A stretch of 64,000 nucleotides of DNA, taken from assembly GCA_944320885.1 (NCBI GenBank), contig CALUJE010000002.1, positions 62,001 through 126,000 on the forward strand. Reading direction: 5' to 3'. The stretch is from an uncultured Phocaeicola sp. Its GTDB lineage: Bacteria > Bacteroidota > Bacteroidia > Bacteroidales > Bacteroidaceae. Made by a program: the position numbers and the translations under genes. This document shows, in pieces, positions 29,257 through 64,000 of the stretch. Under the pieces are notes generated by a model. The model was given only the letters and a program-made list of their open reading frames with translations, was not told where the DNA came from and made no database searches. How positions within the stretch are numbered: position 1 is the first letter of the stretch; every line of letters starts with the position of its first letter.

Positions 29257-30333
29257 ATGAAGTATGGTTTATTTTGGGGAAGCTTATTGTTATTAACGGC
29301 CTTCTCATGTAGTAATGATGTCAATAAAAGTATGACAGATTTATTTAAAGACAAGGAGTCTTCACTAAAAACTGAATGCTTTACATCGCTTGAAAAAGAC
29401 AGTATAGGAGAACCTTATATGTTTGCGTGTTTAAAGAATAAGCTGTTATTTGCAGATATGCATCAGGAATCCTTCCTTTCCGAGTTCGACAAAAATACGG
29501 GAAAATGGATTGGCAATAGTTTGACTCGTGGCAATGGACCGGGCGAATATATTCATTTATCAAATATGTCGGTTGTAAACAATAAACTGTTTGTATGGGA
29601 TTCCGGTAAATCTTTTGTTGATATATTGAAGTCGGAAGGCGATACTCTTGCAGGAGAGAAGCATATATATATTGGTTCCGATTCATGCCTTGTTTCAGCC
29701 TTTCAGGTTTGTCCTGTCGATGAAAACTATTTTATAGCATCGGGCATTATAAAAAACAATCGTTTGGCAGTCTTGGATTCTCGTGGCAAAATCTGTAGTT
29801 CTTTTGGAAATTATCCCTTTTCAGGAGAAGATGATAAGGAGAATTATATAACGCAGGCTTTTGTGCATCAGGGAAGTATTGCCTGTTCTCCGGACAAGAA
29901 AAGATTAGCCGTTGGCAATATGATGGGAGATGCTGTTTCATTTTTTGATATATCAGATTTGAAGTCGCCTAAATTATGTAAGGAATATAATTATGCAGTT
30001 CCTCAATACAGAAAAGTGGAAAACAATTCTGTAGCTTTTGATAAAGAATGCATGGTTGGTTTTATCGGTTTGGTCGCATCCTCCCGATACTGTATAGGTT
30101 TATATGATGGAGAGAAGTCTCTCTCTTCACAAGATTCTTTTGGTGGAAATAAATTGTTGTTTTTTGATTGGGATGGAACTCCCTTGTCTTTAGTTCGATT
30201 AGATATGAAGTATTCATATATGGCAATGGATAATGAGAATGAAAGACTTTATTTATTGGGTATTGATCCGGAATCATTGGAATATAAAGTAGATATGATT
30301 GACTTGGATAAATTGTCATTCAGTGAAGAATAG
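29257..30333 (+). CDS. BF3164-type (TolB-like) propeller lipoprotein
   Basis: A 358-residue predicted lipoprotein (lipobox LTAFSC, Cys18) with the repeated beta-strand pattern of the TolB-like six-bladed propeller family known from BF3164. It carries RGNGPGEY near residue 90, a version of the G-x-GP-x-E motif shared by the propeller proteins at 53-64 kb. The function of the family is unknown. It pairs with the DUF4221 gene downstream, and its own promoter carries a dyad. Confidence 0.82.
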   Translation: MKYGLFWGSLLLLTAFSCSNDVNKSMTDLFKDKESSLKTECFTSLEKDSIGEPYMFACLKNKLLFADMHQESFLSEFDKNTGKWIGNSLTRGNGPGEYIHLSNMSVVNNKLFVWDSGKSFVDILKSEGDTLAGEKHIYIGSDSCLVSAFQVCPVDENYFIASGIIKNNRLAVLDSRGKICSSFGNYPFSGEDDKENYITQAFVHQGSIACSPDKKRLAVGNMMGDAVSFFDISDLKSPKLCKEYNYAVPQYRKVENNSVAFDKECMVGFIGLVASSRYCIGLYDGEKSLSSQDSFGGNKLLFFDWDGTPLSLVRLDMKYSYMAMDNENERLYLLGIDPESLEYKVDMIDLDKLSFSEE

Positions 30334-30423
30334 AATTTCTTGAAAGATATTTTTATACCGTTTGGTCTTAAAGGTTTGGACTGTAAAGTTCTGTATTGGT
30401 AACAAGTAATAAAAAGTTGTGCT

Positions 30424-31587
30424 ATGAAAAAATTTTGGATATGTCTTTTTGCCGTAGCCTTGTTCTGTTCCTGCGGAAATAAAGGAAAGAATTATTCTTA
30501 TACGTTACAGACGGTGGATACATTTTTGAACTATCATTTGGCATCGGATGTAAAAGTACCGTTGATGATACGTAGCTGCACGGATAATGCCGGTAAGGAA
30601 TATGTTTATTTTCAGAACGGCATATTGCCGGACTTACTGATATATGACATTCACAATGAGACTTTGGTGAAAAGAGTTAAATTCGAAATAGAAGGCCCCG
30701 ATGCGATAGGAGGTGGTTTCTTGTATGGATTCATGATGACAGGCTGTAATCATATTTATATTTCAAGTAAGGTTAAGCCTGAACTTTATGTAACCGATAC
30801 GACCGCTTACATAAAACGGAAGATAAGCTATGCAGAAACGGCTGATGGATACAAGCCAGAGTCTTGTTGTATGGATGATGGTGCTTTCCAGTTTCTAGAT
30901 GGAAAACTTTATCTGCCACAAGGTATCAATTTCAGCTTTGGAAAGGAGGTGATGGAGAAAAGTGCGTTGTTGTGCAGTCTGGATACTTTGTCGGGTGAGG
31001 TGGAAGCGCTTCCAGTCAAGTTTCCCCCGGTTGGCGGTGTTATCGGTAGAGGTTCGTCAGGCAATGTCAATGCTAATTATAAATTTTGTTTTAATGGTCA
31101 GGAGTTCGTCTATTCGTTTGCTTATATGGATGATTTGATGGTGGTGAATCCGTTGACGCATCAAGTGGAATATAAGGAGGTAAAGAGCAGGTATATAGGT
31201 GAGATGAAACCTTTTTCTGCCCAGAGTACAAATGATGCGGCATTACAAAAAGAACTCTGTGAGTATCCGGCTTATTCAAACATAATGTACGATTCATACA
31301 ATAAGGTCTATTACCGCATGGTGTATGTACCTCAGGAAATAGACAGAAAGGTAGATATTCTTTCTTTATATCGTACTGGAAGGAAACAGTTTTCCATAAT
31401 GATTTTGGACGAAGATTTCAATGTGATAGGCGAGCACCTATTCCCGCCCTATACATACAATCCACGATTAAGCTTTGTTTCGAAGGGTAAGTTATACATC
31501 AGTCTGAATAATATAATGAACCCCGATTATAGTGATGATGTTATCAGATTCCAGATGGTAGAGCTGATAAAGGATATACAGAAATAG
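30424..31587 (+). CDS. DUF4221 family lipoprotein
   Basis: A 387-residue predicted lipoprotein (lipobox ALFCSC near residue 17) of the DUF4221 type. Typical traits are EIEGPDAIG (about 80) and the C-terminal segment MILDEDFNVIGEHLFPPYTY, both also seen in the proteins at 59463 and, diverged, 56081. It follows the BF3164-type gene by 90 bp, giving the same pairing that recurs in the 56-64 kb operon. Function is unknown; a surface or periplasmic propeller is inferred. Confidence 0.8.
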   Translation: MKKFWICLFAVALFCSCGNKGKNYSYTLQTVDTFLNYHLASDVKVPLMIRSCTDNAGKEYVYFQNGILPDLLIYDIHNETLVKRVKFEIEGPDAIGGGFLYGFMMTGCNHIYISSKVKPELYVTDTTAYIKRKISYAETADGYKPESCCMDDGAFQFLDGKLYLPQGINFSFGKEVMEKSALLCSLDTLSGEVEALPVKFPPVGGVIGRGSSGNVNANYKFCFNGQEFVYSFAYMDDLMVVNPLTHQVEYKEVKSRYIGEMKPFSAQSTNDAALQKELCEYPAYSNIMYDSYNKVYYRMVYVPQEIDRKVDILSLYRTGRKQFSIMILDEDFNVIGEHLFPPYTYNPRLSFVSKGKLYISLNNIMNPDYSDDVIRFQMVELIKDIQK

Positions 31588-50545: not shown

Positions 50546-50896
50546 ATGACTCTCCCAGATAATATTCATCCGTTGGAACTAAAGGTCTTTCTGAACCATA
50601 TTTATGAATATAAGAAAGGTGTTCGTAATATGGTGTTGTATACAACAAACAAAAAGTATGAGAAATATGCTGTCAAGCGCCTGACAAGTCAGCATATTGA
50701 TTTTTACATTCAGTATATTGATAGCAACAAGATAAACCTGTTTTTCGGTCGTCCGGAGTGTATAAAATTGATTCGGCATATGACGCAGCGTCCGCTGAAC
50801 GAATTGACTCCGGAAGAGGATTTTATATTGGGAGCCATGTTAGGGTATGATATCTGTGGGCAGTGCCGACGTTATTGCAAACGGAAAATGCAATAA
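50546..50896 (+). CDS. DUF2023 family protein, flavodoxin partner
   Basis: A 116-residue protein of family DUF2023, known almost only beside flavodoxin genes in Bacteroidales. It has a compact alpha/beta body and a Cys-rich C-terminal tip (CGQCRRYCKRK) that could bind a metal or cluster. The conserved pairing suggests a role in maturing or docking flavodoxin, but no function is established. Confidence 0.85.
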   Translation: MTLPDNIHPLELKVFLNHIYEYKKGVRNMVLYTTNKKYEKYAVKRLTSQHIDFYIQYIDSNKINLFFGRPECIKLIRHMTQRPLNELTPEEDFILGAMLGYDICGQCRRYCKRKMQ

Positions 50897-50936
50897 AGGG
50901 ACTGCCGCTTTGTAAACGGAAAAATTGGGACTTTAA

Positions 50937-50976
50937 AAACGACGTGTTCTTCTTTGGGAAGAGCGCGTCGTTTTTT
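50937..50976 (+). terminator. Hairpin terminator after DUF2023, ACGACG family
   Basis: AAAACGACG pairs with CGTCGTTTT, and the inner TCTTC pairs with GAAGA, followed by a T-run. The sequence is similar to the hairpins at 54371-54453. Confidence 0.75.
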
Positions 50977-50988
50977 ATGAGAAATGAC

Positions 50989-50996
50989 TATATTTG
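50989..50996 (+). promoter_or_regulatory. Predicted -7 box for the first membrane regulator
   Basis: TATATTTG. Transcription start near 51003 supports the ATG at 51019 as start and excludes the frame opening at 50863. Confidence 0.55.
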
Positions 50997-51018
50997 CGAT
51001 GTAAAAAGAATAGAAATC

Positions 51019-52038
51019 ATGATGCGTCTTCAAAAATATGGTGATTGTAAGGTTGTGTTGTTTTTTCTCGTACTTGCGGGATGCATGCTGACTTTGTGCG
51101 TATTGTATTATAATAAAGAAAAAGAGGCAACGTTATCTGATGTTCAGGCTTGCGTGAAGGGGATGTTGCAGCAGGAGATGAGAACCCGTGCGCAGATAAT
51201 TCAGTCAACCAAGAAGATATATACTAGTGGAAAAGGACATACTCGTATATTCAAGCCTTATCCTTTTTACGTAACAATCAATGTAGGACGAGGTGAGGAA
51301 CGTTTCCTGATGGATTCTCTTTCAAGCATGAAAAACATTGCATTCACATCAAACGAACGTACTTTACATACAATATCATTGGTAGAGACTCCGTTCAGGC
51401 TCGATTCTTTCCGGATGGCATGTATTGATTCTTTGTCTCAAAGGGGAGTTTATGCCCGTCTGTTTTTTGATTTCCGTGATCGGGAAGAGCATACCACATC
51501 GGGCGACAGCCTTTCTTCCAAGCTGGTGATGGATTATAACATAGGAAACGGTAATGAATACAGCTTAAAGGCCTATGCCCATATCCCTTTCTTTTTTAAG
51601 GACCATGTTAATTTCCTGATGGGAGCGACCTTCCTGTTTGTTGTTTTATTATTATTCTATTGTTATCGCAGGCTGAAACGAGTAACCAATGTGGTGGGTC
51701 AAAAAGAGGAATTAGGTGATAAGTCAGAATCAGGCATACGTTATGTGTGTCCTCACAAGGCTTTTTATCTGTCAGGAGCCAGTTCCGTTCATCTGACATC
51801 TCGCGAGGCAGAAATATTTGAGTCATTGTATTTTGCTCCGGAACATACAATGTCTTCTTCCGATTTGAAGATGAAACTTTTCGGCGATTCTTCCATACAG
51901 ACAAGTGCCTTGGCAACCCGTTTGGGTGATATCCGGAAGAAACTAAGAGAAGTAGGTGATTTCAGAATAGAATACAATAAGACTTCGCGTTGCTATACAT
52001 TGTCATTCCCGGCCGGTTGTATAGAAGTGATAAGTTAA
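51019..52038 (+). CDS. Two-pass membrane winged-helix regulator R1
   Basis: A 339-residue putative ToxR/CadC-like one-component regulator with inverted order. It has a short cytosolic N terminus, a first membrane helix (about 11-30), an extracytoplasmic domain of about 165 residues without Cys pairs, and a second helix (about 196-216). A cytosolic C-terminal winged helix of the OmpR type follows (about 240-335, with LTSREAEIFESLYFAPEHTMSS). No kinase or receiver domain is present. It is convergent with R2. The target is unknown; R2 and R3 neighbours suggest propeller genes. Confidence 0.78.
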   Translation: MMRLQKYGDCKVVLFFLVLAGCMLTLCVLYYNKEKEATLSDVQACVKGMLQQEMRTRAQIIQSTKKIYTSGKGHTRIFKPYPFYVTINVGRGEERFLMDSLSSMKNIAFTSNERTLHTISLVETPFRLDSFRMACIDSLSQRGVYARLFFDFRDREEHTTSGDSLSSKLVMDYNIGNGNEYSLKAYAHIPFFFKDHVNFLMGATFLFVVLLLFYCYRRLKRVTNVVGQKEELGDKSESGIRYVCPHKAFYLSGASSVHLTSREAEIFESLYFAPEHTMSSSDLKMKLFGDSSIQTSALATRLGDIRKKLREVGDFRIEYNKTSRCYTLSFPAGCIEVIS

Positions 52039-52073
52039 ATGAGATATGTATATATAAATCAATAGGAAAACAG

Positions 52074-53057
52074 TTATGGATTGTCCGGTAATTTCAATTT
52101 ATATCCTTTCTCTTTGACTGTGATAAGCTCGTAATCGGTATTTTTCAGAACTTTTCGTATAAAGCTGATATGTGTGTTTATATTCTGTTCTGCATTGATG
52201 CTGTTTGGCCAGAACTTCTCTTTGATTTCCTGTCGGGTAATAGCGTAATGATTCTGTTCCTGAAACATAGCTAATATCTGCATATCCAGTTTACTCATGT
52301 TGTAGGGAATTCCCTGAATGATAATTTCTTTATTATCCCAATCAAATAAGATAGAAGTTGACACAGACTGTCTGTCATCTTCTCCCATTCTGTCAGAGAA
52401 AGATGTTTGTTGCTTCCGGTATATGACGCTCAGACCAGCTATGACAAGCAGTTCCAGAATCAATATATACCATAAACCGTACGGCATATATCTGATGGGA
52501 GCCAGAAAATCATAATTTACCCATCCCTGTATGCGGATATGTCCCAGAAAATCGACCGGTTTAACAGGGGTGCGATAGGCTGTCTGAGGGCTAATCGAAT
52601 CATTTTGGTTGTATTGCACATGGCCTTTATACCGGTAGATGATGCCGCTTGGATATTCTTTAGCCGATAGTTTTTCCCGAAAGATCTGTGCCAGTTCATC
52701 CGGGCAGATGGCATAAGAGGTTTTGGCCATTTGCAGTTGATGGACATATTTGTCTGCCGTGCTGGTATATATGCTGTCTTTAAACGTGATGTGATAGATT
52801 GAATCTGCTGTAACCAGTTTATATCGCTTTATTTTCCTGTTATAATGTGAATTGTTGTAACTGGAATGTTGTGATATAATCGAATTTCGATTATGATAGT
52901 CTATGTCAATGGCATCGGTCAAGGCATTGCAAGTTTGCTGTTTGAGCATGGAATATGAATATAAGTATAGTCCTGTGCCTGATAAAATGAAAACTAAGAC
53001 ACCTGTCAGTAGCAGATGGATATAGGATATTCTCTTTAATTTTCGTTTTGATACCAT
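52074..53057 (-). CDS. Two-pass membrane winged-helix regulator R2
   Basis: A 327-residue paralogue in architecture of R1 and R3. The first helix lies at about 8-32 (YIHLLLTGVLVFILSGTGLYLYS), an extracytoplasmic domain at about 33-188 and the second helix at about 190-212. The C-terminal OmpR-type winged helix (about 235-325) has ITRQEIKEKFWPNS and the recognition helix region NINTHISFIRKVL. It is divergent from the propeller gene at 53280, whose promoter carries the 35-nt element. Signal reception outside the membrane and DNA binding inside is inferred. Confidence 0.82.
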   Translation of the reverse strand: MVSKRKLKRISYIHLLLTGVLVFILSGTGLYLYSYSMLKQQTCNALTDAIDIDYHNRNSIISQHSSYNNSHYNRKIKRYKLVTADSIYHITFKDSIYTSTADKYVHQLQMAKTSYAICPDELAQIFREKLSAKEYPSGIIYRYKGHVQYNQNDSISPQTAYRTPVKPVDFLGHIRIQGWVNYDFLAPIRYMPYGLWYILILELLVIAGLSVIYRKQQTSFSDRMGEDDRQSVSTSILFDWDNKEIIIQGIPYNMSKLDMQILAMFQEQNHYAITRQEIKEKFWPNSINAEQNINTHISFIRKVLKNTDYELITVKEKGYKLKLPDNP

Positions 53058-53083
53058 GCCGTTGTATTAATTATATAGTTTTA

Positions 53084-53091
53084 CAAAGGTA
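53084..53091 (-). promoter_or_regulatory. Predicted -7 box for R2
   Basis: TACCTTTG on the minus strand, 27 nt before the R2 start codon. Confidence 0.55.
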
Positions 53092-53163
53092 TGAAAAACG
53101 TTTGATATTTAAATTTGGCATAATGTAAAATGTAATACCGCATTGGTAATTTGAATGGTAAAT

Positions 53164-53198
53164 ATCTTAAATAAAGATTTAAGGTGAATTTTAATGTA
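53164..53198 (+). promoter_or_regulatory. 35-nt conserved element, copy 1
   Basis: It begins ATCTTAAATA and ends TTTAATGTA. It contains the perfect dyad CTTAAAT-AAAG-ATTTAAG and two TTTAA half-sites 12 bp apart (TTTAAGGTGA and TTTAATGTA). Copy 2 at 55918-55952 matches at 30 of 35 positions. Both end 29 nt before a -7 box, as expected for an activator site. Confidence 0.75.
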
Positions 53199-53227
53199 GT
53201 AATGTATCTTTTTTTACAGGAAAGATG

Positions 53228-53235
53228 TATATTTA
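53228..53235 (+). promoter_or_regulatory. Predicted -7 box for the propeller gene at 53280
   Basis: TATATTTA, one mismatch from TAnnTTTG, with no -33 TTTG. This fits a promoter that needs an activator. Confidence 0.5.
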
Positions 53236-53279
53236 GTCACTAATCGGAATGTATATATGAAAATGTAAGATATTGAGTT

Positions 53280-54338
53280 ATGAGAAGGCATATTTATTTG
53301 ATTTGTATCCTTTTTCTGTTGACGGCATGTCAGAAGAAGAATCTTTCTAATGAAGTGAATGTAGAATTCAGCAATGCGGTATCAGAAATCAATTATTCTA
53401 CGTTTGTAAAATCAGCAGAGTATCTTTCGCTTCACCTTCCGGACAGTGTACTGATAAATACAGTCGAGGCTCTGTATTTTGATGATGGTAAGATTTTTGT
53501 CAAAGACAGTAAGAGAGAAGGAATTTTCATCTTTGATGAAAAGAGTGGGCAATTCATTCACCGGTTGAAAGCTTATGGTGAGGGACCGAGAGAAATTAAG
53601 CGAATAGGAAGTTTCTGTCTGGATAGTTACCATAAGCATATCTGTATTTTTGATAGCGGTGATAATAAAATAAAGAGATATGATTATTCGGGTAACTATG
53701 TATCATCGTGCGCTGTTGATTATTTTGTATTGGATATGGTTCAGCTGCAAAATGATGGAATGATTTGCTTTTATCCGGTATATGCCTATCAGGAGCAGCC
53801 AAGTGGTATTTGGTCTGTCGATTCATTGAATAATTTTAGAAAACAGCTTTATGCCCATGTTACGGAAGACTGTAAATTCCACTATTTTCCAATGATGTAT
53901 AATTGGAATGATACGTGTGCCTATTATTATGACCGCAATTGGAATGAATTGTTGCAAGTTTCTGCGGACACTGTTCGTCTGTTGTATACTTTCAATATAG
54001 AGAATGCACTTCCCTTATCGAAGAAAGGGATAAGAAACTTGTCGCCTTCGGATTTGGATGGATATAATATTGTTCATCATTTTGCCTATTCGGAACATTT
54101 CATTTTATTGTCTGTTCATACTTTCAATAAAAATGATATGTTATCAAAAAATATAACATGGATTTTATTTGATCAAAAAACAGCCACAACAGTTGTATCC
54201 GAATCATTGCGGAATGATTTGGTTTCAAACCATGACATAGGAAATAACACCCTGTTTTACAAGAATAATAGCACATGGGTTCGTATAGATGACTCTTCGG
54301 ATAGTATAATTCGTTTGGAATTGTTGTATTTGTTGTAA
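53280..54338 (+). CDS. Six-bladed beta-propeller lipoprotein (PF17170-like)
   Basis: A 352-residue predicted lipoprotein (lipobox LLTAC, Cys17). The mature part resembles the Bacteroidales six-bladed propeller family PF17170: a region like INYSTFVKSAEYLSLHLPD, a first blade DDGKIFVKD, then GEGPREIKRIG (about 105), the G-x-GP-x-E motif. It is similar to the proteins at 62704 and 63771. It is monocistronic and divergent from R2. Function is unknown; ligand or glycan binding at the surface is only a guess. Confidence 0.82.
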   Translation: MRRHIYLICILFLLTACQKKNLSNEVNVEFSNAVSEINYSTFVKSAEYLSLHLPDSVLINTVEALYFDDGKIFVKDSKREGIFIFDEKSGQFIHRLKAYGEGPREIKRIGSFCLDSYHKHICIFDSGDNKIKRYDYSGNYVSSCAVDYFVLDMVQLQNDGMICFYPVYAYQEQPSGIWSVDSLNNFRKQLYAHVTEDCKFHYFPMMYNWNDTCAYYYDRNWNELLQVSADTVRLLYTFNIENALPLSKKGIRNLSPSDLDGYNIVHHFAYSEHFILLSVHTFNKNDMLSKNITWILFDQKTATTVVSESLRNDLVSNHDIGNNTLFYKNNSTWVRIDDSSDSIIRLELLYLL

Positions 54339-54370
54339 TGTGTTTATAATCAAATAAATAACAATGGGTA

Positions 54371-54453
54371 AAAACGACGTGTCCTTTTTGAAAAAGCACA
54401 CGTCGTTTTCATTGAAAGCACCCGTCCTTTTTAAAAAAGCACACGTGCTTTTT
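54371..54453. terminator. Two tandem hairpins between convergent genes
   Basis: AAAACGACGTGT pairs perfectly with ACACGTCGTTTT (54371-54409), with CTTTTT/AAAAAG inside. A second hairpin (AAAGCAC/GTGCTTT, with CTTTTT/AAAAAG, about 54415-54451) follows. The CGT motifs start at 54378, 54401, 54423 and 54444, about 22 bp apart. The first hairpin resembles the one at 50937-50976. Confidence 0.8.
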
Positions 54454-54484
54454 TACGAATGAATATATAGTTATACGCTGTTTT

Positions 54485-55450
54485 TTACAGCAGAGCTGTG
54501 TTTTCAATGAATCCTAATTGAAGTTGGTAACCGTTTTGTATGGAAACGATATTAATTTCTTGTATGCAATTCAATGATTTTCTCAGTCTTGCTATGGCTT
54601 GACCTATTCTTTGTTTTTCTGTTCTGTTTACTTCATTTTCATCTTCATATGATATATGATATATCTGTTTGCAGATGTCCGTGTATTTCAGTTTATGCTC
54701 TTCCGCTTTAAGAAAGGCAGTTATATAAAGTGTCTCCGTATAAGTCAGTTTGATTTCATTGCTCTCATTCTTTAAAATATGTTTGTCTGGATATAGTTTC
54801 CATCCATTTGATAATGGAATTTTTTCATATTCATTATCATTTGTAATAGATAGTTCTTTGTTACCATTTGGCTTATGAGCCTTTTTCTCAATATAAAATG
54901 TAATACAGATAAGGTATAAGATACATCCACCAGTGATTAGTAATATGTAAGGATAGTTAAGCCATTGTGATACTGTAATGTTTATATATGGTTGCAAAAT
55001 AATATCTTTTTTTCTGTCATTATCAAAACGATACACAACCGGAAGTAATGGCGTATATTGTTTTATTTGTTCTGGAGTTCCTGTAGAATTCGTGTTTTTA
55101 TTATAAGTACAGGACACAAATGATTCCGTTTGAATATTTTCTTCAAGCAATAATGCTGAGAATGTAGAATCCAAATAGATTCTGGTAGGATCTTCCATAT
55201 TTATATAAAGTTGTTTTATCCATTCTTCTTTTTCTGTTAATGATACGCTTTTATCTTCTGTTGTATCAGTTTTATGTATGGAGATACTTCTTTTTATATA
55301 ATGGAGCTTTTCTCTTTCCAGTGATTCCTTAAAAGTTAAATTGGCTTTTTCGGCCAGATTGTGTCTGTAAATACCATATCCTATCAGGTTGGCTATTCCC
55401 CATATGATTATTGTTATGCATATGTATTTATGTAAGCGCTTTATTTTCAT
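54485..55450 (-). CDS. Two-pass membrane winged-helix regulator R3
   Basis: A 321-residue protein of the same design as R1 and R2. The first helix lies at about 8-26 (YICITIIIWGIANLIGYGIY), an extracytoplasmic domain at about 27-160, and the second helix at about 163-182. The C-terminal winged helix (about 215-315) has LTYTETLYITAFLKAEEHKLKYTDI and IGQAIARLRKSLNCI. It is divergent from the propeller operon that starts at 56081 and is the likely controller of that operon. TGTCAACA motifs near its own promoter suggest autoregulation. Confidence 0.82.
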   Translation of the reverse strand: MKIKRLHKYICITIIIWGIANLIGYGIYRHNLAEKANLTFKESLEREKLHYIKRSISIHKTDTTEDKSVSLTEKEEWIKQLYINMEDPTRIYLDSTFSALLLEENIQTESFVSCTYNKNTNSTGTPEQIKQYTPLLPVVYRFDNDRKKDIILQPYINITVSQWLNYPYILLITGGCILYLICITFYIEKKAHKPNGNKELSITNDNEYEKIPLSNGWKLYPDKHILKNESNEIKLTYTETLYITAFLKAEEHKLKYTDICKQIYHISYEDENEVNRTEKQRIGQAIARLRKSLNCIQEINIVSIQNGYQLQLGFIENTALL

Positions 55451-55494
55451 ATAAGATTCTTGTTGTTAAGTAGAATAAATATTCTTGTAGCAGA

Positions 55495-55548
55495 CAAAAG
55501 TATAGTATTTTATAGAAATGTCAACAGTCAACAATCAAAATGTCAACA
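55495..55548 (-). promoter_or_regulatory. R3 promoter with TGTCAACA repeats
   Basis: Minus strand: -7 TACTTTTG (55495-55502), -33-like GTTG (55522-55525). TGTCAACA occurs at 55519-55526 and 55541-55548, exactly 22 bp apart, with another TCAACA at 55528. The first copy overlaps the -33 region. Confidence 0.5.
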
Positions 55549-55780
55549 AAAAAATTTATACTACTTACAAGAATAGCATATTTTTGCTGCAACATCTAAA
55601 TATGATATATGCAGACAAATGTGAAAGAAATCCATGATAGTTGCAGTTTTCTCCGTGATGTAAAAGTGCATTTATACTTTAACGGAAGGAACTTTATCTG
55701 TGAAGTTTGCTTTTAGATTGTATGATAATATGGCTTATCAGACCTGGAAAATTTTACATTTTTCATGTATAATATGAAAA

Positions 55781-55842
55781 GTGAGTAAAAAGTGATAGTA
55801 AAGTGAGCTAAAAGTGATAGTAAAAGTAGGAGAAAAATAGGA
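55781..55842. repeat. 11-bp phased GTGA repeats
   Basis: GTGA starts at 55781, 55792, 55803 and 55814, exactly 11 bp apart, each preceded by an A-run; every second unit is GTGATAGTAAA. Two further related units (GTAGGAG at 55826 and ATAGGAG at 55837) are 11 bp apart. The pattern fits tandem winged-helix sites or phased A-tract bending. Confidence 0.85.
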
Positions 55843-55917
55843 GAGCTTACTTAATTTTGTGTTCAGAATATTTGTGCTGGTTAGTGATTGAAAACTTAGA
55901 TATTGAATATTAAATCA

Positions 55918-55952
55918 ATCTTAAATAGATTTTTAAGGTGAGATTTAATGTA
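55918..55952 (+). promoter_or_regulatory. 35-nt conserved element, copy 2
   Basis: It matches copy 1 (53164-53198) at 30 of 35 positions without a gap, including ATCTTAAATA, TTTAAGGTGA and TTTAATGTA. The -7 box follows after 29 nt, as in copy 1. Confidence 0.75.
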
Positions 55953-55981
55953 AGAAAAGGATGAATGATGAAAGAATGCAA

Positions 55982-55989
55982 TACATTTG
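55982..55989 (+). promoter_or_regulatory. Predicted -7 box of the propeller operon
   Basis: TACATTTG matches TAnnTTTG, with no -33 TTTG. The leader to 56081 is about 85 nt and contains an ATATCTG/CAGATAT hairpin (56028-56047) followed by a T-rich run. Confidence 0.5.
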
Positions 55990-56080
55990 CTTTAAACATA
56001 AATATTATCTGGAAGATTACAGACCGGATATCTGTATTGCCAGATATATGTCATACGGTATGTTAATTTTTTATTGAAAC

Positions 56081-57274
56081 ATGATGAAGTCAATACTAAT
56101 GAAAAATACAGTTGCTGGAATAATTTTAGCCTTGATTGCTATGACGGTATACGGGTGTGATCAAAAGAAGAAAACCTGTGAAGAAAAAAATGCGGTGACA
56201 TGCCATATCGTTGAAAAGCATATTCCGGCGTCTGATGTGTTGTATCTAAAAGCTTATCCTCTTTCAGCTTCCTATCAGACAAGTAAAGATACAATCATTT
56301 TGGGATATAATTATCGTTCGCATGCCTTGGATGTAATAGATTGTCGGACGGATAGTGTTCGTGAAATACGGTTTGAAAAAGAGGGAAACAATGCTGTAAC
56401 GGGACGTTTGACATCTCTGTATGTCCATAATATGGATTCCATCTGGATTTATTCAGAATCGATGCAGGCATATTTGGTAGACCAAACAGGAAGTATTCGG
56501 CAGAAACTGAATTTGAATGATTATCTTCAGGATGGCGAAGAACTGTTGCTAATGAATAATCATGCTGTTTGTACTTCCCGTTTATATTATGATGCGTTAC
56601 GTGGCACATTGCTATATGGCATTGTGAACAGGAATTCGTCTCCGTGCACATTTAAGGTTTGCGAATTGGATTTGAAATCACTTGAAATAGTGAATGAATA
56701 TTCTTTGCAGGCTTCTCTTGCAGATAAAGATGTAAGTAGCGGATATGCAAATATGAATAATGCCGTGAATATAGCTTTTCACGACAGTCTGATTGTATAT
56801 AATTATCCTATAGAATCACATATATATGTACTTAATCGCCTTACGGGAAGTTTCCGAGCCTTAGAGGCCGACAGTCGTTATACAAAAAACTGTGCTGAAA
56901 AATGCCTTTCAAAAGATTATTCTTTATGGGAAAGACATCAGATAGAGAACCCTCATTTCTTTGATGTGATGTATCTCTCTGAAGTTGGCATATATGCACG
57001 TCTGCATTTGGGAGGGGTGGCATACAGGCAGGATACAGACTTGGGTCAGTTGTCCGACTCACGTTCTTTATATGTGTCTTTTTATGATACTGATTTTCAT
57101 AAACTGGGAGAACAGATGTTACCGGAACGCCGTTACAGTTACTATACAGGATGGTGTGGCATGAACGATGGAATTTTGCTGTTTGTAGATAATGCACTGG
57201 CCGATTATGATTTTTCTGAAGATTTGTATGTTGACAAGGTTTATCCTGTTAAAACTGGCTTGAAAACGGAATAA
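56081..57274 (+). CDS. DUF4221-like propeller lipoprotein
   Basis: A 397-residue predicted lipoprotein (lipobox TVYGC near residue 26), first gene of a run of at least eight propeller genes. It resembles the DUF4221 proteins at 30424 and 59463, for instance in the C-terminal FYDTDFHKLGEQMLPERRY, but the EGPDA motif is changed to EGNNA. The mature protein has several extra Cys residues. Met1, Met2 and Met7 are all possible starts. The 35-nt element and phased repeats upstream suggest control by R3. Confidence 0.75.
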   Translation: MMKSILMKNTVAGIILALIAMTVYGCDQKKKTCEEKNAVTCHIVEKHIPASDVLYLKAYPLSASYQTSKDTIILGYNYRSHALDVIDCRTDSVREIRFEKEGNNAVTGRLTSLYVHNMDSIWIYSESMQAYLVDQTGSIRQKLNLNDYLQDGEELLLMNNHAVCTSRLYYDALRGTLLYGIVNRNSSPCTFKVCELDLKSLEIVNEYSLQASLADKDVSSGYANMNNAVNIAFHDSLIVYNYPIESHIYVLNRLTGSFRALEADSRYTKNCAEKCLSKDYSLWERHQIENPHFFDVMYLSEVGIYARLHLGGVAYRQDTDLGQLSDSRSLYVSFYDTDFHKLGEQMLPERRYSYYTGWCGMNDGILLFVDNALADYDFSEDLYVDKVYPVKTGLKTE

Positions 57275-57319
57275 TGATGAATGGATGATTATGAGGATTG
57301 ATATAAATTGGAAATAGTT

Positions 57320-58372
57320 ATGAAAATGAAATATATCTTGATATTCAGTTTGTTTTTGCTAGGTTGTGCTTCCGGCCCAAAACAACAAAAAATGAGTTTA
57401 GAAAAGATTGAAGAATCAAGTGTTGATTCTTTGGTTTTACATCCGGTTCCCGGCATGGAGTTGTGGTGTAGTGACGGGCTGTCTGTTTGTGACAGTTGTC
57501 TTCTAATTCTGGATCGTTGTCAAGATAAGAAGTTGTATGTCTATAGATTGAACGATTTCAAATGTGTCGCCAATATCGGAGCTGTGGGACAGGGACCGGA
57601 AGATATGATTTTTCCTTTCTTCCTTCACAATAATATCTCTTCTTCAAATCAGCAAACAATATATGATGTGAATATGGCCCGTATTAAAACCATTGATATC
57701 CATTCCTTGTTGAGCGGTTCAAAGGAGATTATCAAACAGAATATTCCTTTACCGGCAGAAGTGATAGGATCTACAGACATGTCACAGATCGGTGATTCGT
57801 ATTATGGGACAAAAGATTCTAATGAAGGCCTGTTTTTCATATATTCACAAACAGACAGTATTATGAAATGGATTCCTTATTCCAAGTCGGTGCAACCATC
57901 TGAAGGAAATAAGCTGACAACTGTCGGTCAGAGTCGTATCACGGTTCATCTTAATCAGAAACTTGTTGCCGTAGCCATGCGGTATTATAATCAGATTTTT
58001 TTGTATGACAATAAGGGAGAATTCTTAAAAGGAGTCACTTTAGGTAAAGAAATAGAGCCCGTTTATGAAAGTCCTGAAAAATTAAGTACATCATCTGAGC
58101 TATTTTTCTCACAAATTAGTTCTACTGATAATTATATTTATTTGGTAACGGCCAATCAATATTATAAGGATACCCGTCCGGCCAGTCAACGTCCAAGAGA
58201 TATCGTTGTTTTTGATTGGGAATTGAATCATGTGAAAACATTTAAGACAAATAAATGTATTCAGCAGTTGATAGTAGATCCTGTTTATCGTCGTTTATTG
58301 CTTTTGTGCATAAATGATGAGGAAGAACCGGAACTGTATTATGCTGATTTTCAGGAAAGTCAACTCATATGA
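57320..58372 (+). CDS. BF3164-type propeller lipoprotein
   Basis: A 350-residue predicted lipoprotein (lipobox FLLGC, Cys16). The ATG at 57320 was chosen over a TTG at 57308. GAVGQGPEDMIFP near residue 90 is the propeller motif. It is clearly paralogous to the protein at 61663: both share LLILDRC/LLLIDRC, a GS-x-D motif followed by YYGT/YWGT, and AMRYYN/GMRYYN. This points to duplication within the operon. Function is unknown. Confidence 0.82.
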   Translation: MKMKYILIFSLFLLGCASGPKQQKMSLEKIEESSVDSLVLHPVPGMELWCSDGLSVCDSCLLILDRCQDKKLYVYRLNDFKCVANIGAVGQGPEDMIFPFFLHNNISSSNQQTIYDVNMARIKTIDIHSLLSGSKEIIKQNIPLPAEVIGSTDMSQIGDSYYGTKDSNEGLFFIYSQTDSIMKWIPYSKSVQPSEGNKLTTVGQSRITVHLNQKLVAVAMRYYNQIFLYDNKGEFLKGVTLGKEIEPVYESPEKLSTSSELFFSQISSTDNYIYLVTANQYYKDTRPASQRPRDIVVFDWELNHVKTFKTNKCIQQLIVDPVYRRLLLLCINDEEEPELYYADFQESQLI

Positions 58373-58422
58373 AATAGGAAACAATGTTAGAATTATGTAA
58401 CATTTTTAGAATTGAAATAACT

Positions 58423-59436
58423 ATGAAAAAGGGAATTTTATTGTTGATATCTTTTGTTGTTTTTAGTTGTGCTTCTCATGAACCTTCTTCTAAAGTTTTA
58501 GAACTGGATGAAGGAATTCCTGTTGTAGCAAAGGAATATAAAAATGAGTTGATTATTACCAATCCATTGGATTTGGCTGTAATAGACAATAAATTAGTAT
58601 TGTTTATGCATTCCGGTGAAAAACCGCTTTTAATTGTAAATCCGGATGACGGTACACTTACAGGTAGCTGGGGAGAGTTTGGAAACGGACCGGATGAATT
58701 TACAGCGCCAACATATTGGGGGCATGATAAGTCGAAACAGGAGCTTTACTTATACGATGTAAATTATCGTGTATTACGTGTATATCGTTACCAGGCTGCG
58801 GGTGACAGTTTGTCGTTCAATAGAATTAGAGAAGTTGCAATGTCAGATGAAATTATGGTAAATTGTGGAACAGTATTAGATAATAGCAATATAGTTACCT
58901 CAGTCTTGTTTTTTGGAAATGCGCCCATACAGTTATTGGATAAGGATTTAAGGACGCTGTCTGGATTCGGTTGGTTATCAGAACAAGGTGATTCATCAAC
59001 AGATATGCGTACATTTAAAGGAAGACTTTCGTCTTATAAAAATTCATTTGCATTTGGTATGGATGGAATAGGATATTTGGCATTTTATAATCAAACAGAT
59101 ACAACAGCATATAAAGAATGGGAGGTTTATTTGGATAAACCTTTATATGTAGGTGATAGACTTGATTTGAAAAAAGTAAAACAAGGGTTTCTTGATATAG
59201 AAGTGACCAAACACTACGTTATATGTAGCTATTGCGGTAAGCCTTATTCGCGTGAAGATGGAGGTTTTTATGGTTATAATATCCTTGTATTTGACCATGA
59301 CGGTGATTTGGTTCACAACTTGAAATTAGATAGGGAGATTGGTCGCATAGCTGTATCGGATGATGAAAAGACTGTTTATGCAGTAGCTTATGAACCGGAT
59401 ATATGTATTGTCAGATATACATTAAATGACTTATAA
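58423..59436 (+). CDS. BF3164-like propeller lipoprotein
   Basis: A 337-residue predicted lipoprotein (lipobox VFSC near residue 16 from the ATG at 58423; the frame opens at 58384 but its extra residues spoil the signal peptide). GEFGNGPDEFTAP near residue 85 is the shared motif, followed by ELYLYDVNYRVLRVY. It is part of the 56-64 kb operon. Function is unknown. Confidence 0.8.
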   Translation: MKKGILLLISFVVFSCASHEPSSKVLELDEGIPVVAKEYKNELIITNPLDLAVIDNKLVLFMHSGEKPLLIVNPDDGTLTGSWGEFGNGPDEFTAPTYWGHDKSKQELYLYDVNYRVLRVYRYQAAGDSLSFNRIREVAMSDEIMVNCGTVLDNSNIVTSVLFFGNAPIQLLDKDLRTLSGFGWLSEQGDSSTDMRTFKGRLSSYKNSFAFGMDGIGYLAFYNQTDTTAYKEWEVYLDKPLYVGDRLDLKKVKQGFLDIEVTKHYVICSYCGKPYSREDGGFYGYNILVFDHDGDLVHNLKLDREIGRIAVSDDEKTVYAVAYEPDICIVRYTLNDL

Positions 59437-59443
59437 TTTTATT

Positions 59444-59482
59444 TATAGAAATTCTATAGAGTATGAAAAAGGTAATGTATTT
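59444..59482 (+). repeat. Duplicated start region, copy 1
   Basis: The palindrome TATAGAAATTCTATA (59444-59458) lies 4 nt before the start codon at 59463. The palindrome, spacer and first codons recur almost unchanged at 60627-60664. Confidence 0.75.
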
Positions 59483-60620
59483 TCGTTTGTTCCTTATTAT
59501 GCTGTGTCTTGTTTCATTATATGTAGATGGAAAAACTATTTCTAAGCATATAGTGTCGTTAGCGGCAACAGGGAAGATTAAAAGTTTTCAATTGGACTCA
59601 GATACAAGATATAATGCTTTCTATTTGTATCCTTTTGAGGATAAGACAGGTAAAGAATATCTTTCTTTTTTAAATTATGGAAGTAACCAAATACTTTTTT
59701 ATGATTTAGAAACCGCTAATTTTATTTTTAAAATTAACTTGCCATCTGATGGGCCAGACGCTATAGTCCGATTGTCTGGTTATTATATTGAGAATTTTGA
59801 AAATATATATTTAACTTCTTACTCTTATAAAGGGATTATAAAAGTGGATACGACTTCACATATTATAAGTAAAATTCCGTATGCAAGAACAGTTTCGGGA
59901 TTCGACTTTTTGCCTTCGTATGTTTCATCTTCTCATCCATATACAGCTCCATATTTTATTGATGGATATCTATTTTTGATGCCACCTTTAGTAAAACGTT
60001 CTAATCCGGCAGAAAAAACACCACTTTGTGTTTGTATTGATACTCTGTCTAATAAGATTTTTGAGTCTAGAATTACGTATGGAGATGTATTATCAGAAGA
60101 AGAAATGGCAACAAACGATACTAGATGTAGTAGAATTTTTGATGGTGAAAATTTTGTTTATTCCTTTTATGTAAATAATGATATTATAGTAACGGATAAA
60201 AAGCATAAAGAGATAAAGAGATTTGCAGCAAAAAGTGCGTATATAAAATCTTCTAGAGAGAAACAAGAAGTAGGTTTAAATGGGGCTAAATCAAATTTGG
60301 AAATTCCTCGTTATGGTGACTTGATATATGATAAATATAGGGAAGTTTATTATAGGTTTGCTTATCATAAAACAGAATTGGATGATGATATGGAGTGGAG
60401 AGGAAAAGCTGTTTATGGAAGAAAGAAATTTTCTGTAATCATATTAGATAAAGAGTTTAATGTGATAGGTGAAACATTGTTTCCAGAATCTATATATAAT
60501 TCATATGTCTTTTTTGTCAAAAGAGAAGGCTTATATATAAGTAGAGATTATCGGATAGGGATTGGTAAGCAATCTGAAAATTATTTAACATTTGAACTTT
60601 TTGAATTAAGATATAGTTAA
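59463..60620 (+). CDS. DUF4221-like propeller protein without lipobox
   Basis: A 385-residue exported protein with DUF4221 traits: PSDGPDAIVRLSG near residue 95 and VIILDKEFNVIGETLFPESIYN near the C terminus. The signal region (YFRLFLIMLCLVSLYVDGKTIS) has no lipobox Cys, unlike the other propeller genes here, so a soluble periplasmic or secreted form is likely. The gene is visibly more AT-rich than its neighbours in 30-50 kb. It starts right after a 13- to 15-nt palindrome shared with the next gene. Confidence 0.75.
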   Translation: MKKVMYFRLFLIMLCLVSLYVDGKTISKHIVSLAATGKIKSFQLDSDTRYNAFYLYPFEDKTGKEYLSFLNYGSNQILFYDLETANFIFKINLPSDGPDAIVRLSGYYIENFENIYLTSYSYKGIIKVDTTSHIISKIPYARTVSGFDFLPSYVSSSHPYTAPYFIDGYLFLMPPLVKRSNPAEKTPLCVCIDTLSNKIFESRITYGDVLSEEEMATNDTRCSRIFDGENFVYSFYVNNDIIVTDKKHKEIKRFAAKSAYIKSSREKQEVGLNGAKSNLEIPRYGDLIYDKYREVYYRFAYHKTELDDDMEWRGKAVYGRKKFSVIILDKEFNVIGETLFPESIYNSYVFFVKREGLYISRDYRIGIGKQSENYLTFELFELRYS

Positions 60621-60626
60621 ATATTA

Positions 60627-60664
60627 ATAGAAATTCTATAGAGTATGAATAAGGTAATATATCT
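60627..60664 (+). repeat. Duplicated start region, copy 2
   Basis: ATAGAAATTCTAT (60627-60639), then TAGAGT and the ATG at 60645, followed by nearly the same first codons as copy 1 at 59444-59482. Only about three bases differ over 38. Confidence 0.75.
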
Positions 60665-61646
60665 TTTATTGATTGTATTTTGTTTTGCTTGTAGTTCACA
60701 AAATACGGAAAAGGAAAGAATTTACAATTCCTGGGATAAGGAGGCAGATGTAAAAGATGCCGTTCGTGAATTAAGTTTGGAAGACGTAATGGTTCATGAT
60801 AATTCTTCACTATATGTAAATGGAAATTATATATTAATAGTAGACCATAGTTCAATGGATAACCAAATCTTTGTTATTGGTAAGAATGATTTTCATTATG
60901 CAGGTAGTTTTGCACATAAGGGAGGAGGTCCAAACGAAATTACTAATATTGGAGATTTAGCTTTTAATGAATCACAGCAATTAGTTTACATTACTGATTT
61001 CGGTAAACAGAAAATTCTATCATGTAACATTGATAGTGTCTTGATGGATTCATCATATACATTTAAGGAAGTTGCCTCATTAGAGAAATCTCAATTTCCC
61101 AGTGAATATACTTATATAAACGACACACTGTGTGTTGGTCGATTTATTTTTCCGATAGGAAATAATAATTATCGTCCGCAAGTGGCTAAATGGAATATGC
61201 TTACAGGCGAATATAAACTAATGGGGTACGAGCATCCTGGTATTGAAAGTAAGCGTATGACTTGTGCGGTGTCTGCAGAGAAACAATTGTATGCAGAATG
61301 TTATAGTAATCATGATTTACTCACGATTGGTGATTTTGATGGTAATTTGAAATGTAATATCTATGGCCCCAAATGGAAAGAAAGTACAAGAGGAGTCAAT
61401 TATTACGGTAAAGCTGTATTCCGTAATAATCAGATTATTGTACCTTACTCTGGAGGCACCCGTAAAAACGATACTTATGAGCCGATCAAATTTCATGTAT
61501 TCGATATAGATGGAAATTATCTGAAAACATTAAATATAGGTTATAAGATTATCAGATATTGTTATGATAAAGATAATGATCGTTTAATTATGTGTTTTAA
61601 TGATGAAATTCAGTTTGGATATTTGGACTTGAAAGATTTGATATAG
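60645..61646 (+). CDS. Six-bladed beta-propeller lipoprotein
   Basis: A 333-residue predicted lipoprotein (lipobox FCFAC, Cys16). HKGGGPNEITNIGDLAF near residue 95 is the shared G-x-GP-x-E motif. The protein body does not resemble the preceding gene closely, although their start regions are nearly identical, so the repeat there reflects recombination or a shared control site more than whole-gene duplication. It is AT-rich. Function is unknown. Confidence 0.78.
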   Translation: MNKVIYLLLIVFCFACSSQNTEKERIYNSWDKEADVKDAVRELSLEDVMVHDNSSLYVNGNYILIVDHSSMDNQIFVIGKNDFHYAGSFAHKGGGPNEITNIGDLAFNESQQLVYITDFGKQKILSCNIDSVLMDSSYTFKEVASLEKSQFPSEYTYINDTLCVGRFIFPIGNNNYRPQVAKWNMLTGEYKLMGYEHPGIESKRMTCAVSAEKQLYAECYSNHDLLTIGDFDGNLKCNIYGPKWKESTRGVNYYGKAVFRNNQIIVPYSGGTRKNDTYEPIKFHVFDIDGNYLKTLNIGYKIIRYCYDKDNDRLIMCFNDEIQFGYLDLKDLI

Positions 61647-61662
61647 AAACAAATATATTCTT

Positions 61663-62685
61663 ATGAAATATCTATCCCTGTTAATCATAGTGACTGCTTT
61701 TTGGTGCTGCTCTCGGAAAGAATCTGCAGAAAAAAGTGTGGTTCGTCAGGAACAGATTGTGGAAACAAAACCTGTAGAAATAATTTTGAAGGACTTGTTT
61801 TGTCTGGAGCAGGTATGCATAAAAGATTCATTTCTGTTACTGATTGATCGTTGCGATTCTTGCATGTTTCATGTGTATGATATGAAGCGCGACAGTCTGG
61901 TAGTTTCTTTTGGAGTAAGAGGGCAGGGACCCAATGATTTTTTATATCCTATGTTTTTATCAGGTACAGATGTGAAAGACTGTGATTCTGTATATTGTTA
62001 TGATGTGAATTCACGTATGATAAAGTCTTTTGCATGGAAATACATTACATCTGGTAAGACTTCTGATATGGGGAGGTTTGATCTTTCCGAAAAGATTGCC
62101 GGTTCTCCAGATCTGACTAAGATAGATGAGGAATATTGGGGAACATTAGACTATATTCAATCTGGTATATATTTTAAATATGCTGAATATGAAGATTCGT
62201 TGGTATGGACAGCATATCCGGAGAGTTTATTGAAATATTCCCAGGGTTTGGGTCTGCAATCAAGAATCGGAGTTCATCCAACCCGAAAGACTCTAGTGGC
62301 AGGTATGAGATATTATAATAAATTGTTCTTATACACTTCTGCCGGGACATTGCAGCGAGAAGTACAAATAGGATATGATGATATATTTCCGGTAGTGGAT
62401 GAAAAGAAAAAGACCGTATTGGAACAAAGTACACTTTGCTGTCAGGCTATTCGGATAACAGAAAATGAGGTGTATGTATTGTATTGCGGATGGCCGCTCA
62501 ATGAGGCGCCAAATGAAAAAAGTACCTCCCGAATATTGGTTTTTGACCAGGAATTGAATTATCAGAGAACTTATATATTGCCTTATAAGGCTGTTTCATT
62601 TGCGGTAGACAATGACTCCCGAATACTGGCATATATAGGGCTAAAAGGAGAGCAATTCATAGTAGGAATTATTCAAACAATGTAG
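61663..62685 (+). CDS. BF3164-type propeller lipoprotein, paralogue of 57320
   Basis: A 340-residue predicted lipoprotein (lipobox AFWCC near residue 15). GVRGQGPNDFLYP near residue 85 is the propeller motif. Strand-by-strand similarity to the 57320 protein is clear (LLLIDRC, YWGT, GMRYYNKLFLY). It starts 17 nt after the preceding stop codon. Function is unknown. Confidence 0.82.
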   Translation: MKYLSLLIIVTAFWCCSRKESAEKSVVRQEQIVETKPVEIILKDLFCLEQVCIKDSFLLLIDRCDSCMFHVYDMKRDSLVVSFGVRGQGPNDFLYPMFLSGTDVKDCDSVYCYDVNSRMIKSFAWKYITSGKTSDMGRFDLSEKIAGSPDLTKIDEEYWGTLDYIQSGIYFKYAEYEDSLVWTAYPESLLKYSQGLGLQSRIGVHPTRKTLVAGMRYYNKLFLYTSAGTLQREVQIGYDDIFPVVDEKKKTVLEQSTLCCQAIRITENEVYVLYCGWPLNEAPNEKSTSRILVFDQELNYQRTYILPYKAVSFAVDNDSRILAYIGLKGEQFIVGIIQTM

Positions 62686-62703
62686 TTTATCATAAAGTAA
62701 ATT

Positions 62704-63759
62704 ATGAAAAGTAATATTCTGTATATAGTAATGACACTTATGTTGTGTTACGCCTGCGCCGACAATTCTGCTACGAAAATGAAGTCGGGAACTCTTCTTT
62801 CAATAAATTTGGAATTGGCACAACCCGTTATGGAAGTTCTGGAGAAAACAGGTAGTATTTCTTTGGAAAATGAAGGAGATACTTTTCCCGGACAGATTCA
62901 TAAAATGCTGATAGATAAGGATGCATTATATTTATTGGATACATATCGTGCACCAGGACTTTATAAGTATGATAGAAATGGTCGTTTTCTTACTGTTTAC
63001 AATCGGCTAGGTCAAGGAAATGGAGAATTTATCGGATTGTCTGATTTTCAGATCTATGGTGACACGATCTATTTGTTAGATTCTTCGGGAAAGAAAATTA
63101 TCAAACTCGACAAGCAGTGCCGATTTCATTCTTCAACCAATCTTTCGGTTATGCCGCTTGCTTTTGCAAAAGACAGTTTGGACGGTACTTGGATAGATAC
63201 AGGAAACACTGCTTTATCAGAGAAGGCTTACACGCTGCTTTATGAACATGAACACACAATGCAGAATGTTCTTTCCATTCCTTTTGAGTTACGTAATATG
63301 ACGTATGCCCCTTATTTTACACTGATAAATGTAGGGAATGCAGTTCATTTTCTTCCTGAAATGCAAAATAAGATTTATAGTTGCGAGAATGGAGAGGCTG
63401 TTCTGATTTATTATTTGGATTTTGGTAAACATTGGTTCACATCCGATTTTTTGGAAGAAAACAAAAATACGAATTCAATGATTTTTTTCCGTAAAATGAA
63501 GGAAGCCGGGTATGTCAATGAGTTAAATTATCTGGAATCGGAAAGTTTGTTATTGCTGTCTTTCAACTGTAATGCAGAATCATACTTGTTCGTATATGAT
63601 AAGGATGACCAAAAACAGGTATTATGTGTGAAAGAAAACGATGAATTGTTTCGCCCGTTGGCAATTAGCGGAGAAGAAATCTTATTTGTTGAAATGACCG
63701 ATTCATGCAATATTATCAATAAATATCGTATCAAAGGCTATAATGACAAGAATCTTTAA
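62704..63759 (+). CDS. Six-bladed beta-propeller lipoprotein (PF17170-like)
   Basis: A 351-residue predicted lipoprotein (lipobox CYAC near residue 19). It has a blade DKDALYLLDTYRAPGLYKYDRNG, then LGQGNGEFIGLSDF, in which GP is replaced by GN, and DTIYLLDSSGKKIIKLD. It is most like the proteins at 53280 and 63771. It is part of the long operon. Confidence 0.8.
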   Translation: MKSNILYIVMTLMLCYACADNSATKMKSGTLLSINLELAQPVMEVLEKTGSISLENEGDTFPGQIHKMLIDKDALYLLDTYRAPGLYKYDRNGRFLTVYNRLGQGNGEFIGLSDFQIYGDTIYLLDSSGKKIIKLDKQCRFHSSTNLSVMPLAFAKDSLDGTWIDTGNTALSEKAYTLLYEHEHTMQNVLSIPFELRNMTYAPYFTLINVGNAVHFLPEMQNKIYSCENGEAVLIYYLDFGKHWFTSDFLEENKNTNSMIFFRKMKEAGYVNELNYLESESLLLLSFNCNAESYLFVYDKDDQKQVLCVKENDELFRPLAISGEEILFVEMTDSCNIINKYRIKGYNDKNL

Positions 63760-63770
63760 AGAGGAGTATA

Positions 63771-64000
63771 ATGAGAAAAGCAATTATAAAGAAAACAATG
63801 ATAACTCTGGTAATTTTATTACTTGTCAGTTCTTCATGTACAAAGCAAACTTCTGATGCGATTTCTGTTGATTTACAGCAGGGGAATAATGATTTACTGT
63901 ATTCTTCTTTTGTAGACAAATTGGACTATGTTCATTTAAAAGCCGGAAAGGAATGCTTGTTGACAGGAATTAAAAAGATTTATTTTGATAATGATACTAT
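63771..64000 (+). CDS. Six-bladed beta-propeller lipoprotein, partial
   Basis: The 3' end lies outside the window. The 76 visible codons show a lipobox (LVSSSC near residue 22) and a start of the propeller like that of the 53280 protein (YSSFVDKLDYVHLKAG compared with YSTFVKSAEYLSLHLP). A clear Shine-Dalgarno-like AGAGGAG lies 5 nt upstream of the ATG, unusual in this window. It continues the operon. Confidence 0.8.
   Translation, partial: MRKAIIKKTMITLVILLLVSSSCTKQTSDAISVDLQQGNNDLLYSSFVDKLDYVHLKAGKECLLTGIKKIYFDNDT

Follow-up and report, generated by a model that had tools for sequence, protein, structure and literature searches.

Two-pass membrane winged-helix regulators beside propeller genes in Phocaeicola and their possible coupling to NVEALA peptides

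Introduction

ToxR and CadC, the described regulators closest to those treated here, carry an N-terminal winged helix and cross the membrane once; regulators of the ToxR type have a small ToxS-like partner protein encoded nearby, and further regulator-partner pairs of the ToxR/ToxS kind exist. Membrane-bound winged-helix regulators as such are a known and widespread kind (PMC10269533). Here we analyze a stretch of 64,000 nucleotides from an uncultured Phocaeicola sp. (assembly GCA_944320885.1, contig CALUJE010000002.1), hereafter the window, which corresponds to C2:62001-126000 of the 2.99-Mb draft genome G000 (G, C and L numbers denote genomes, contigs and loci). Three predicted membrane regulators, R1, R2 and R3, lie there beside a run of genes for exported propeller proteins, and a fourth, R4, is located past the window end. 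Based on this locus and its relatives, we propose that these regulators are one-component activators of a ToxR/CadC-like type, coupled to an exported NVEALA-family peptide dedicated to them, with propeller genes among their targets, a reading to which we give a probability of about 0.5. Its basis is the layout and family of the regulators, their linkage to peptide genes, a sensor that is nearly identical between R2 and R4, and a DNA element at a fixed distance from a -7-like box.

Results

Regulator architecture

R1, R2 and R3 are built in the order helix, external domain, helix and C-terminal OmpR-type winged helix, as claimed in the initial annotation, with two hydrophobic helices each, predicted from hydropathy, and approximately 140-165 residues between them. 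The winged helix of R2 exceeds the Pfam cut-off for PF00486 (35.7 versus 26.2 bits), that of R1 stays under it (21.1 bits) and R3 has no Pfam match to a winged helix. All three are matched over their full length by a profile of relatives that contained no protein of this genome (R2 185, R3 108 and R1 103 bits); 60 shuffled copies and other control proteins gave no match to it at an E-value of 10. Pfam and NCBIfam scans detected neither a receiver nor a kinase domain in R1-R3, in agreement with what had been stated for them. In the AlphaFold model of R2 the winged helix is confident (block means about 75-90), and a Foldseek search with this part returned the DNA-binding domains of the response regulators SaeR, AdeR and PhoP, with ToxR (8b4b) at rank 12 and CadC (5ju7) at rank 17. 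By sequence, the top match of R2 among solved structures is CadC.

Linkage to NVEALA peptides

The divergent neighbour of R4 is the gene for a 77-residue NVEALA-family peptide, which passes the PF14055 cut-off (G000:C2:137753-137908, 32.6 bits, cut-off 27). Many regulators of this Bacteroidales group adjoin a peptide gene, and in relatives the peptides so placed belong to a subtype with the motif C-x3-G-[S/C/D/T/N]-x2-C; the narrower form C-x3-G-[SCD]-x2-C is present in 10 of 13 NVEALA frames less than 1 kb from such a regulator, compared to 1 of 82 others. Ten aligned peptides have in common N-[VI]-E-A-L-A, one glutamate, two cysteines and one glycine, in a layout where a hydrophobic N-terminus is followed by a short cysteine loop.

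A profile of ten regulator-adjoining peptides was also searched against 241 genomes of the family, yielding 25 matches at E 1e-12 or better, six of which are training rows and 19 new. A family regulator is found within 1 kb in 18 of the 19 new matches, in a search that was blind for regulator presence but whose ten queries had been chosen for adjoining regulators. The nineteenth (G619:C44:70050) sits between two regulator-peptide pairs, and one of the 18 regulator frames (L250, 7300-8232) is without the first helix. Weaker peptide matches among 20 loci occur with such a regulator in L261 and L262 and without one in L263 and L264. All 30 pairs collected have the regulator on the 5' side of the peptide, with a divergent orientation in 20 and a tandem one in 10 (counted by reading the coordinates).

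A shared sensor domain

The external domains of R2 and R4 share 95% identity and differ by 0.064 synonymous substitutions per synonymous site (dS), versus 74.5% identity and a dS of 0.737 in the winged helix and a dS of 0.54 in the first-helix region. As dS is eleven-fold lower in one segment, beyond what purifying selection on the protein gives, the plain reading of the sequences is that the sensor underwent gene conversion or had its domain replaced. With external domains near-identical and DNA-binding domains diverged, the two regulators would hence have one sensor in common.

A promoter element at constant spacing

The 32-bp element CTYAAATANANWTTTRAGGTGARWTTTRATRT is common to the R2/53280, R3/56081 and R4/peptide intergenic regions, where it has the same orientation as the propeller or peptide gene (propeller genes are referred to by their first position in the window). 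At these three promoters, a TANATTT[GA] box, which we take to fit the Bacteroides -7 consensus, ends 70, 70 and 71 bp from the element start. In another species of the genus, a looser element is found at 69 bp in the promoter of the peptide gene next to an R2-type regulator. The stretch between element and box shows low conservation. With up to three mismatches allowed, the window contains two element matches, compared with none in 100 shuffles, and the genome contains 20 sites for its core, compared with 7 for the reversed control. Calculated after the fact from the local box density, the chance that three further promoters fall within one base of a given spacing is about 2e-5. The shared element makes control of propeller promoters by the regulators, as initially suggested, plausible.

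Two sites with two mismatches each were not counted, one at C2:135193 before a BF3164-type propeller, where the intergenic region holds no -7-like box, and one at C2:177981, ahead of no gene of the system. Inverted repeats in other intergenic regions were mostly no better than in shuffles. Between the regulator and the peptide gene of another locus (L178, 12685-12821) lie an inverted repeat and TGGAAACATT in three direct copies, a candidate operator for that pair.

Distribution and phylogeny of the regulators

Of the 15 full-length two-pass matches listed from 393 genomes of the order, 9 have an NVEALA or propeller gene match within 12 kb, compared with none of 130 winged-helix-only rows (p = 8e-11), a count that is based on five scored candidates per genome and is not a blind test, since its profile (A4) includes regulators found via NVEALA loci. 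Excluding the genome studied, 5 of 10 two-pass matches are so placed (p = 6e-7). Some weaker NVEALA and PF15869 rows, on contigs that by reading hold no winged-helix-only row, are omitted from this count. The neighbourhood of such regulators is thus enriched as the initial annotation would predict, here for NVEALA or propeller genes taken together. A profile termed A1 returned one locus in the named genomes and, in the 393 genomes, mostly winged helices of response-regulator size. Regulators with no propeller in the stretches examined include two-pass proteins in G005, G013, G011 and G012 (two) and shorter ones in G000:C31, G003 (two), G017 and G019.

In a tree of 49 regulators, the peptide-paired proteins do not form one clade (10 changes; unpaired 3). 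R2 groups with R4 (100/100) and R3 with a paired regulator of G128 (98/76, on a long branch and with odd composition), and R1 is placed among long branches. The profile score failed as a divider between peptide-paired and unpaired regulators, with 11 unpaired proteins at 64-111 bits versus 103-108 for R1 and R3.

A second group comprises shorter two-pass winged-helix regulators beside a protein of about 700 residues (without a Pfam match in L070), with no propellers near (L070 8955-11999, L072, L089 and L090). At a contig end in L154 (8583-11214), two regulators of the kind studied here lie in tandem, and the 8 kb on their other side contain no propellers.

Propeller genes and the surrounding array

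The features of the locus are collected in Table 1. The nine propeller genes reported earlier are present, eight complete and one leaving the window, and R2 and R3 each diverge from a propeller gene as described, across 222 bp (R2/53280) and 630 bp (R3/56081). Regulators and propellers were also said to alternate; they do lie beside each other, but the wording is too strong, since 53280 is the sole propeller between regulators. The gene run from 56081 up to 67249 has gaps of 11-75 bp. Most of the propellers are lipoproteins as annotated, the exception being 59463. None of the window propellers has an SDDDD-like acidic stretch after the lipid cysteine (placed by eye in some rows); a propeller outside the window, at 67514, has TSDDND. 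As an SDDDD-like export signal is described for surface lipoproteins of B. fragilis (PMC5080379), the window propellers more likely face the periplasm, or use another export signal, and the surface location originally assigned to them is not supported.

Table 1. Coordinates of regulators, promoter features and propeller genes (window numbering unless given as C2)
Feature	Position	Strand	Remarks
R1, two-pass membrane regulator, C-terminal winged helix	50977..52038	+	ORF (open reading frame) 50863-52038, ATG at 50977 or 51019
R2, two-pass membrane regulator	52074..53057	-	best conserved winged helix of R1-R3
32-bp element, R2/53280 intergenic	53166..53197	+	
-7-like box TATATTTA	53228..53235	+	element start to box end 70 bp
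Propeller lipoprotein PF17170	53280..54338	+	Pfam
R3, two-pass membrane regulator	54485..55450	-	winged helix via profile of relatives, not Pfam
32-bp element, R3/56081 intergenic	55920..55951	+	
-7-like box TACATTTG	55982..55989	+	element start to box end 70 bp
Propeller lipoprotein PF13970 (DUF4221)	56081..57274	+	Pfam; heads gene run
Propeller lipoprotein PF15869	57308..58372	+	Pfam
Propeller lipoprotein PF15869	58384..59436	+	Pfam
Exported propeller PF13970	59463..60620	+	no lipobox cysteine; PDB relative 3s9j
Propeller lipoprotein PF17170 (weak)	60645..61646	+	Pfam
Propeller lipoprotein PF15869	61663..62685	+	Pfam
Propeller lipoprotein PF17170	62704..63759	+	weak PDB relative 4raa
Ninth propeller	63771..64000	+	exits window, end at 64835 in window numbering
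Two further propeller genes	29257-31587		
R4, fourth two-pass regulator	C2:136495-137559		about 21 kb downstream of R2; divergent from NVEALA peptide gene

The array extends approximately 20 kb past the window end. Besides R4, this extension contains further propellers, two lipoproteins (one with DUF1573, one long), a gene for a signal peptidase S26 and a Wzy_C-type gene, after which come large membrane proteins the size of resistance-nodulation-division (RND) pumps; Pfam names are taken from the same or related proteins. Beyond the peptide gene of R4 are two NVEALA genes, each ahead of a DUF4221 propeller. DUF4221 propellers of 387 residues occur in four very similar copies over about 53 kb (window 30424-31587; L009 2086-3249, 13617-14780 and 18207-19370), two of them directly preceded by near-identical NVEALA peptide genes, and an apparent remnant of a broken NVEALA peptide gene is located ahead of a propeller gene at 67282-67426 in window numbering (L009 3282-3426).

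Across the order, NVEALA/propeller islands repeatedly contain two lipoproteins, one with DUF1573 and one that is long and transglutaminase-like or similar, together with a signal peptidase S26 and a Wzy_C (O-antigen ligase type) membrane protein with tetratricopeptide repeats (e.g. L009 15756-17702 and 19542-20000, and L073 542-3155; also L067, L055 and L195). This gene set is possibly a machinery for peptide export or ligation. The number of NVEALA matches exceeds a dozen in a single island of G001 (C1:365000-408000, L053-L055), which also has many propellers as well as two regulators and represents a strongly diversified array. In an iron study of B. thetaiotaomicron (PMC10434189), scattered changes are listed for BT0662 (O-antigen ligase), BT0664 (propeller), BT0667 (signal peptidase) and BT0669 (RND adaptor). 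This laboratory species hence seems to have a comparable gene set.

Discussion

We propose that the system operates as follows. The external domain of R2 and R4 would answer one and the same cue, most likely the R4-side peptide or whatever that peptide reports on. The winged helix, still in the membrane, would then bind the shared 32-bp element as the site of R2/R4, activating the peptide gene (R4), the PF17170 propeller (R2) and, through the R3 intergenic region, the propeller run from 56081, the promoter of which would drive genes up to 67249. The propellers would be outputs of the switch rather than its sensor. Of the initial annotation's one-component envelope-sensor reading, the ToxR/CadC-like layout and the clustering are retained, while the NVEALA peptide, R4 and the propeller-less regulators had been omitted from it. 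The regulator-peptide pairing and the element at fixed spacing turn an array of uncharacterised genes into a circuit with named parts.

Several findings weigh against this proposal. No NVEALA peptide gene of the C-x3-G type lies beside R1, R2 or R3, and the external domain of R2, the putative sensor, has a predicted local distance difference test score (pLDDT) below 50 in the AlphaFold model, which was built on an alignment of four sequences. The winged helix of R3 differs from that of R2 and R4, yet the R3 intergenic region holds the shared element. Its 20-bp core is exact at the three places only in the genome of about 3 Mb, but the pattern was derived from the very sites it then finds, i.e. 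the exact count shows rarity, not discovery. Among the regulators that the genus search returned and that had not been part of its profile, one is in a propeller array (G001:C1:384253) and the others examined are not near propellers. Finally, using 28 of the 30 pairs (two near-copies dropped), a partial Mantel test did not show that the external domain co-evolves with the peptide to a greater degree than the remainder of the regulator does (r=0.09, p=0.075, given the winged helix); the winged helix correlates with the peptide given the external domain at r=0.29.

The same distances bear on which partner follows the regulators. Both the external domain (r 0.50) and the winged helix (r 0.56) correlate with the peptide, and judging from these values the regulator-peptide pair is inherited as a unit, which the propeller follows less closely. 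It was suggested initially that the propeller lipoproteins present or bind a signal at the cell surface that the regulators sense, in line with the clustering of regulators with propeller and NVEALA genes. In the 20 pairs with a propeller, however, the external domain tracks the peptide when the propeller is held constant (r=0.50) and not the propeller when the winged helix is held constant (r=-0.06), and the window propellers are without the surface-export signal, leaving such a role for the propellers very unlikely. Alternatively, the action of the regulators may be limited to the peptide gene or to the regulators themselves, in which case the propellers would be neighbours through array growth and the element would belong to another factor. 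The two-pass regulators without propellers would fit this, as would the element near R3 with its differing winged helix, and the fact that the element is exact in one genome only, with a loose match in one other. We nevertheless consider it unlikely, given that a BF3164-type propeller is assigned to the locus in 21 of the 30 pairs and that the element is oriented to the propeller or peptide side at constant spacing to the -7-like box.

Possible, if somewhat unlikely, is that the peptide serves the regulator as ToxS serves ToxR, i.e. as a small membrane or periplasmic partner that stabilises or silences the external domain, with envelope stress or a nutrient as the cue. The hydrophobic N-terminus and short cysteine loop are compatible with such a role, the gene is next to the regulator in 30 of 30 pairs (collected for that reason), and ToxR/ToxS and PsaE/PsaF provide precedents. 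The signal peptidase S26 gene that recurs in NVEALA/regulator loci is better suited to release by cleavage, and may indeed release the peptide; moreover, NVEALA peptides without an adjoining regulator are plentiful in the same islands. Taken further, the proposal of activators coupled to an exported peptide would make the latter an autoinducer, in which a membrane-bound one-component winged-helix receptor directly senses an NVEALA peptide that is secreted and looped by a disulfide, and turns on the gene of this peptide together with a diversified island of propellers and further NVEALA peptides. We regard this as tentative and rather unlikely. If true, it would represent a kinase-free peptide quorum or kin-recognition circuit of Bacteroidales, in which gene conversion passes the sensor from one regulator to another and thereby places several promoters under a single peptide; to our knowledge, peptide signalling in this order is poorly known.

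Comparison with known systems

Searches of the literature returned nothing on NVEALA and nothing fitting on combinations of regulator, peptide and propeller, with most subscription journals outside the coverage, and the annotation searched names no function for PF15869, PF13970, PF17170 or the NVEALA families. We found no description in the searched literature of the reversed two-pass order, of the recurrent peptide partner or of the copying of the sensor. By Pfam cut-off, the window propellers are members of PF15869 (BF3164-type/TolB-like), PF13970 (DUF4221, of which 3s9j is a solved protein) and PF17170 (DUF5128), differing in that they here form a run of at least nine genes. The peptides have the hydrophobic leader, N[VI]EALA motif and cysteine-containing tail of PF14055, whereas the regulator-linked subtype is set apart by its C-x3-G-x3-C tail, the Pfam model matching all subtypes alike. 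In contrast to two-component response regulators and hybrid sensors, R1-R3 are without a receiver or kinase domain. With ToxR and CadC they have in common a cytoplasmic OmpR-type winged helix (supported in R2 by Pfam and the structural model, in R1 and R3 by the family profile only), a predicted membrane helix, an external sensor and the lack of a kinase; a small putative partner encoded close by, comparable to ToxS, is a further similarity of the group. They do not have the N-terminal winged helix and single pass of that type; the order is reversed, with a C-terminal winged helix and two passes, and in relatives the neighbour is an NVEALA peptide gene. Hence, R1-R3 may work like ToxR and CadC, but on a different architecture.

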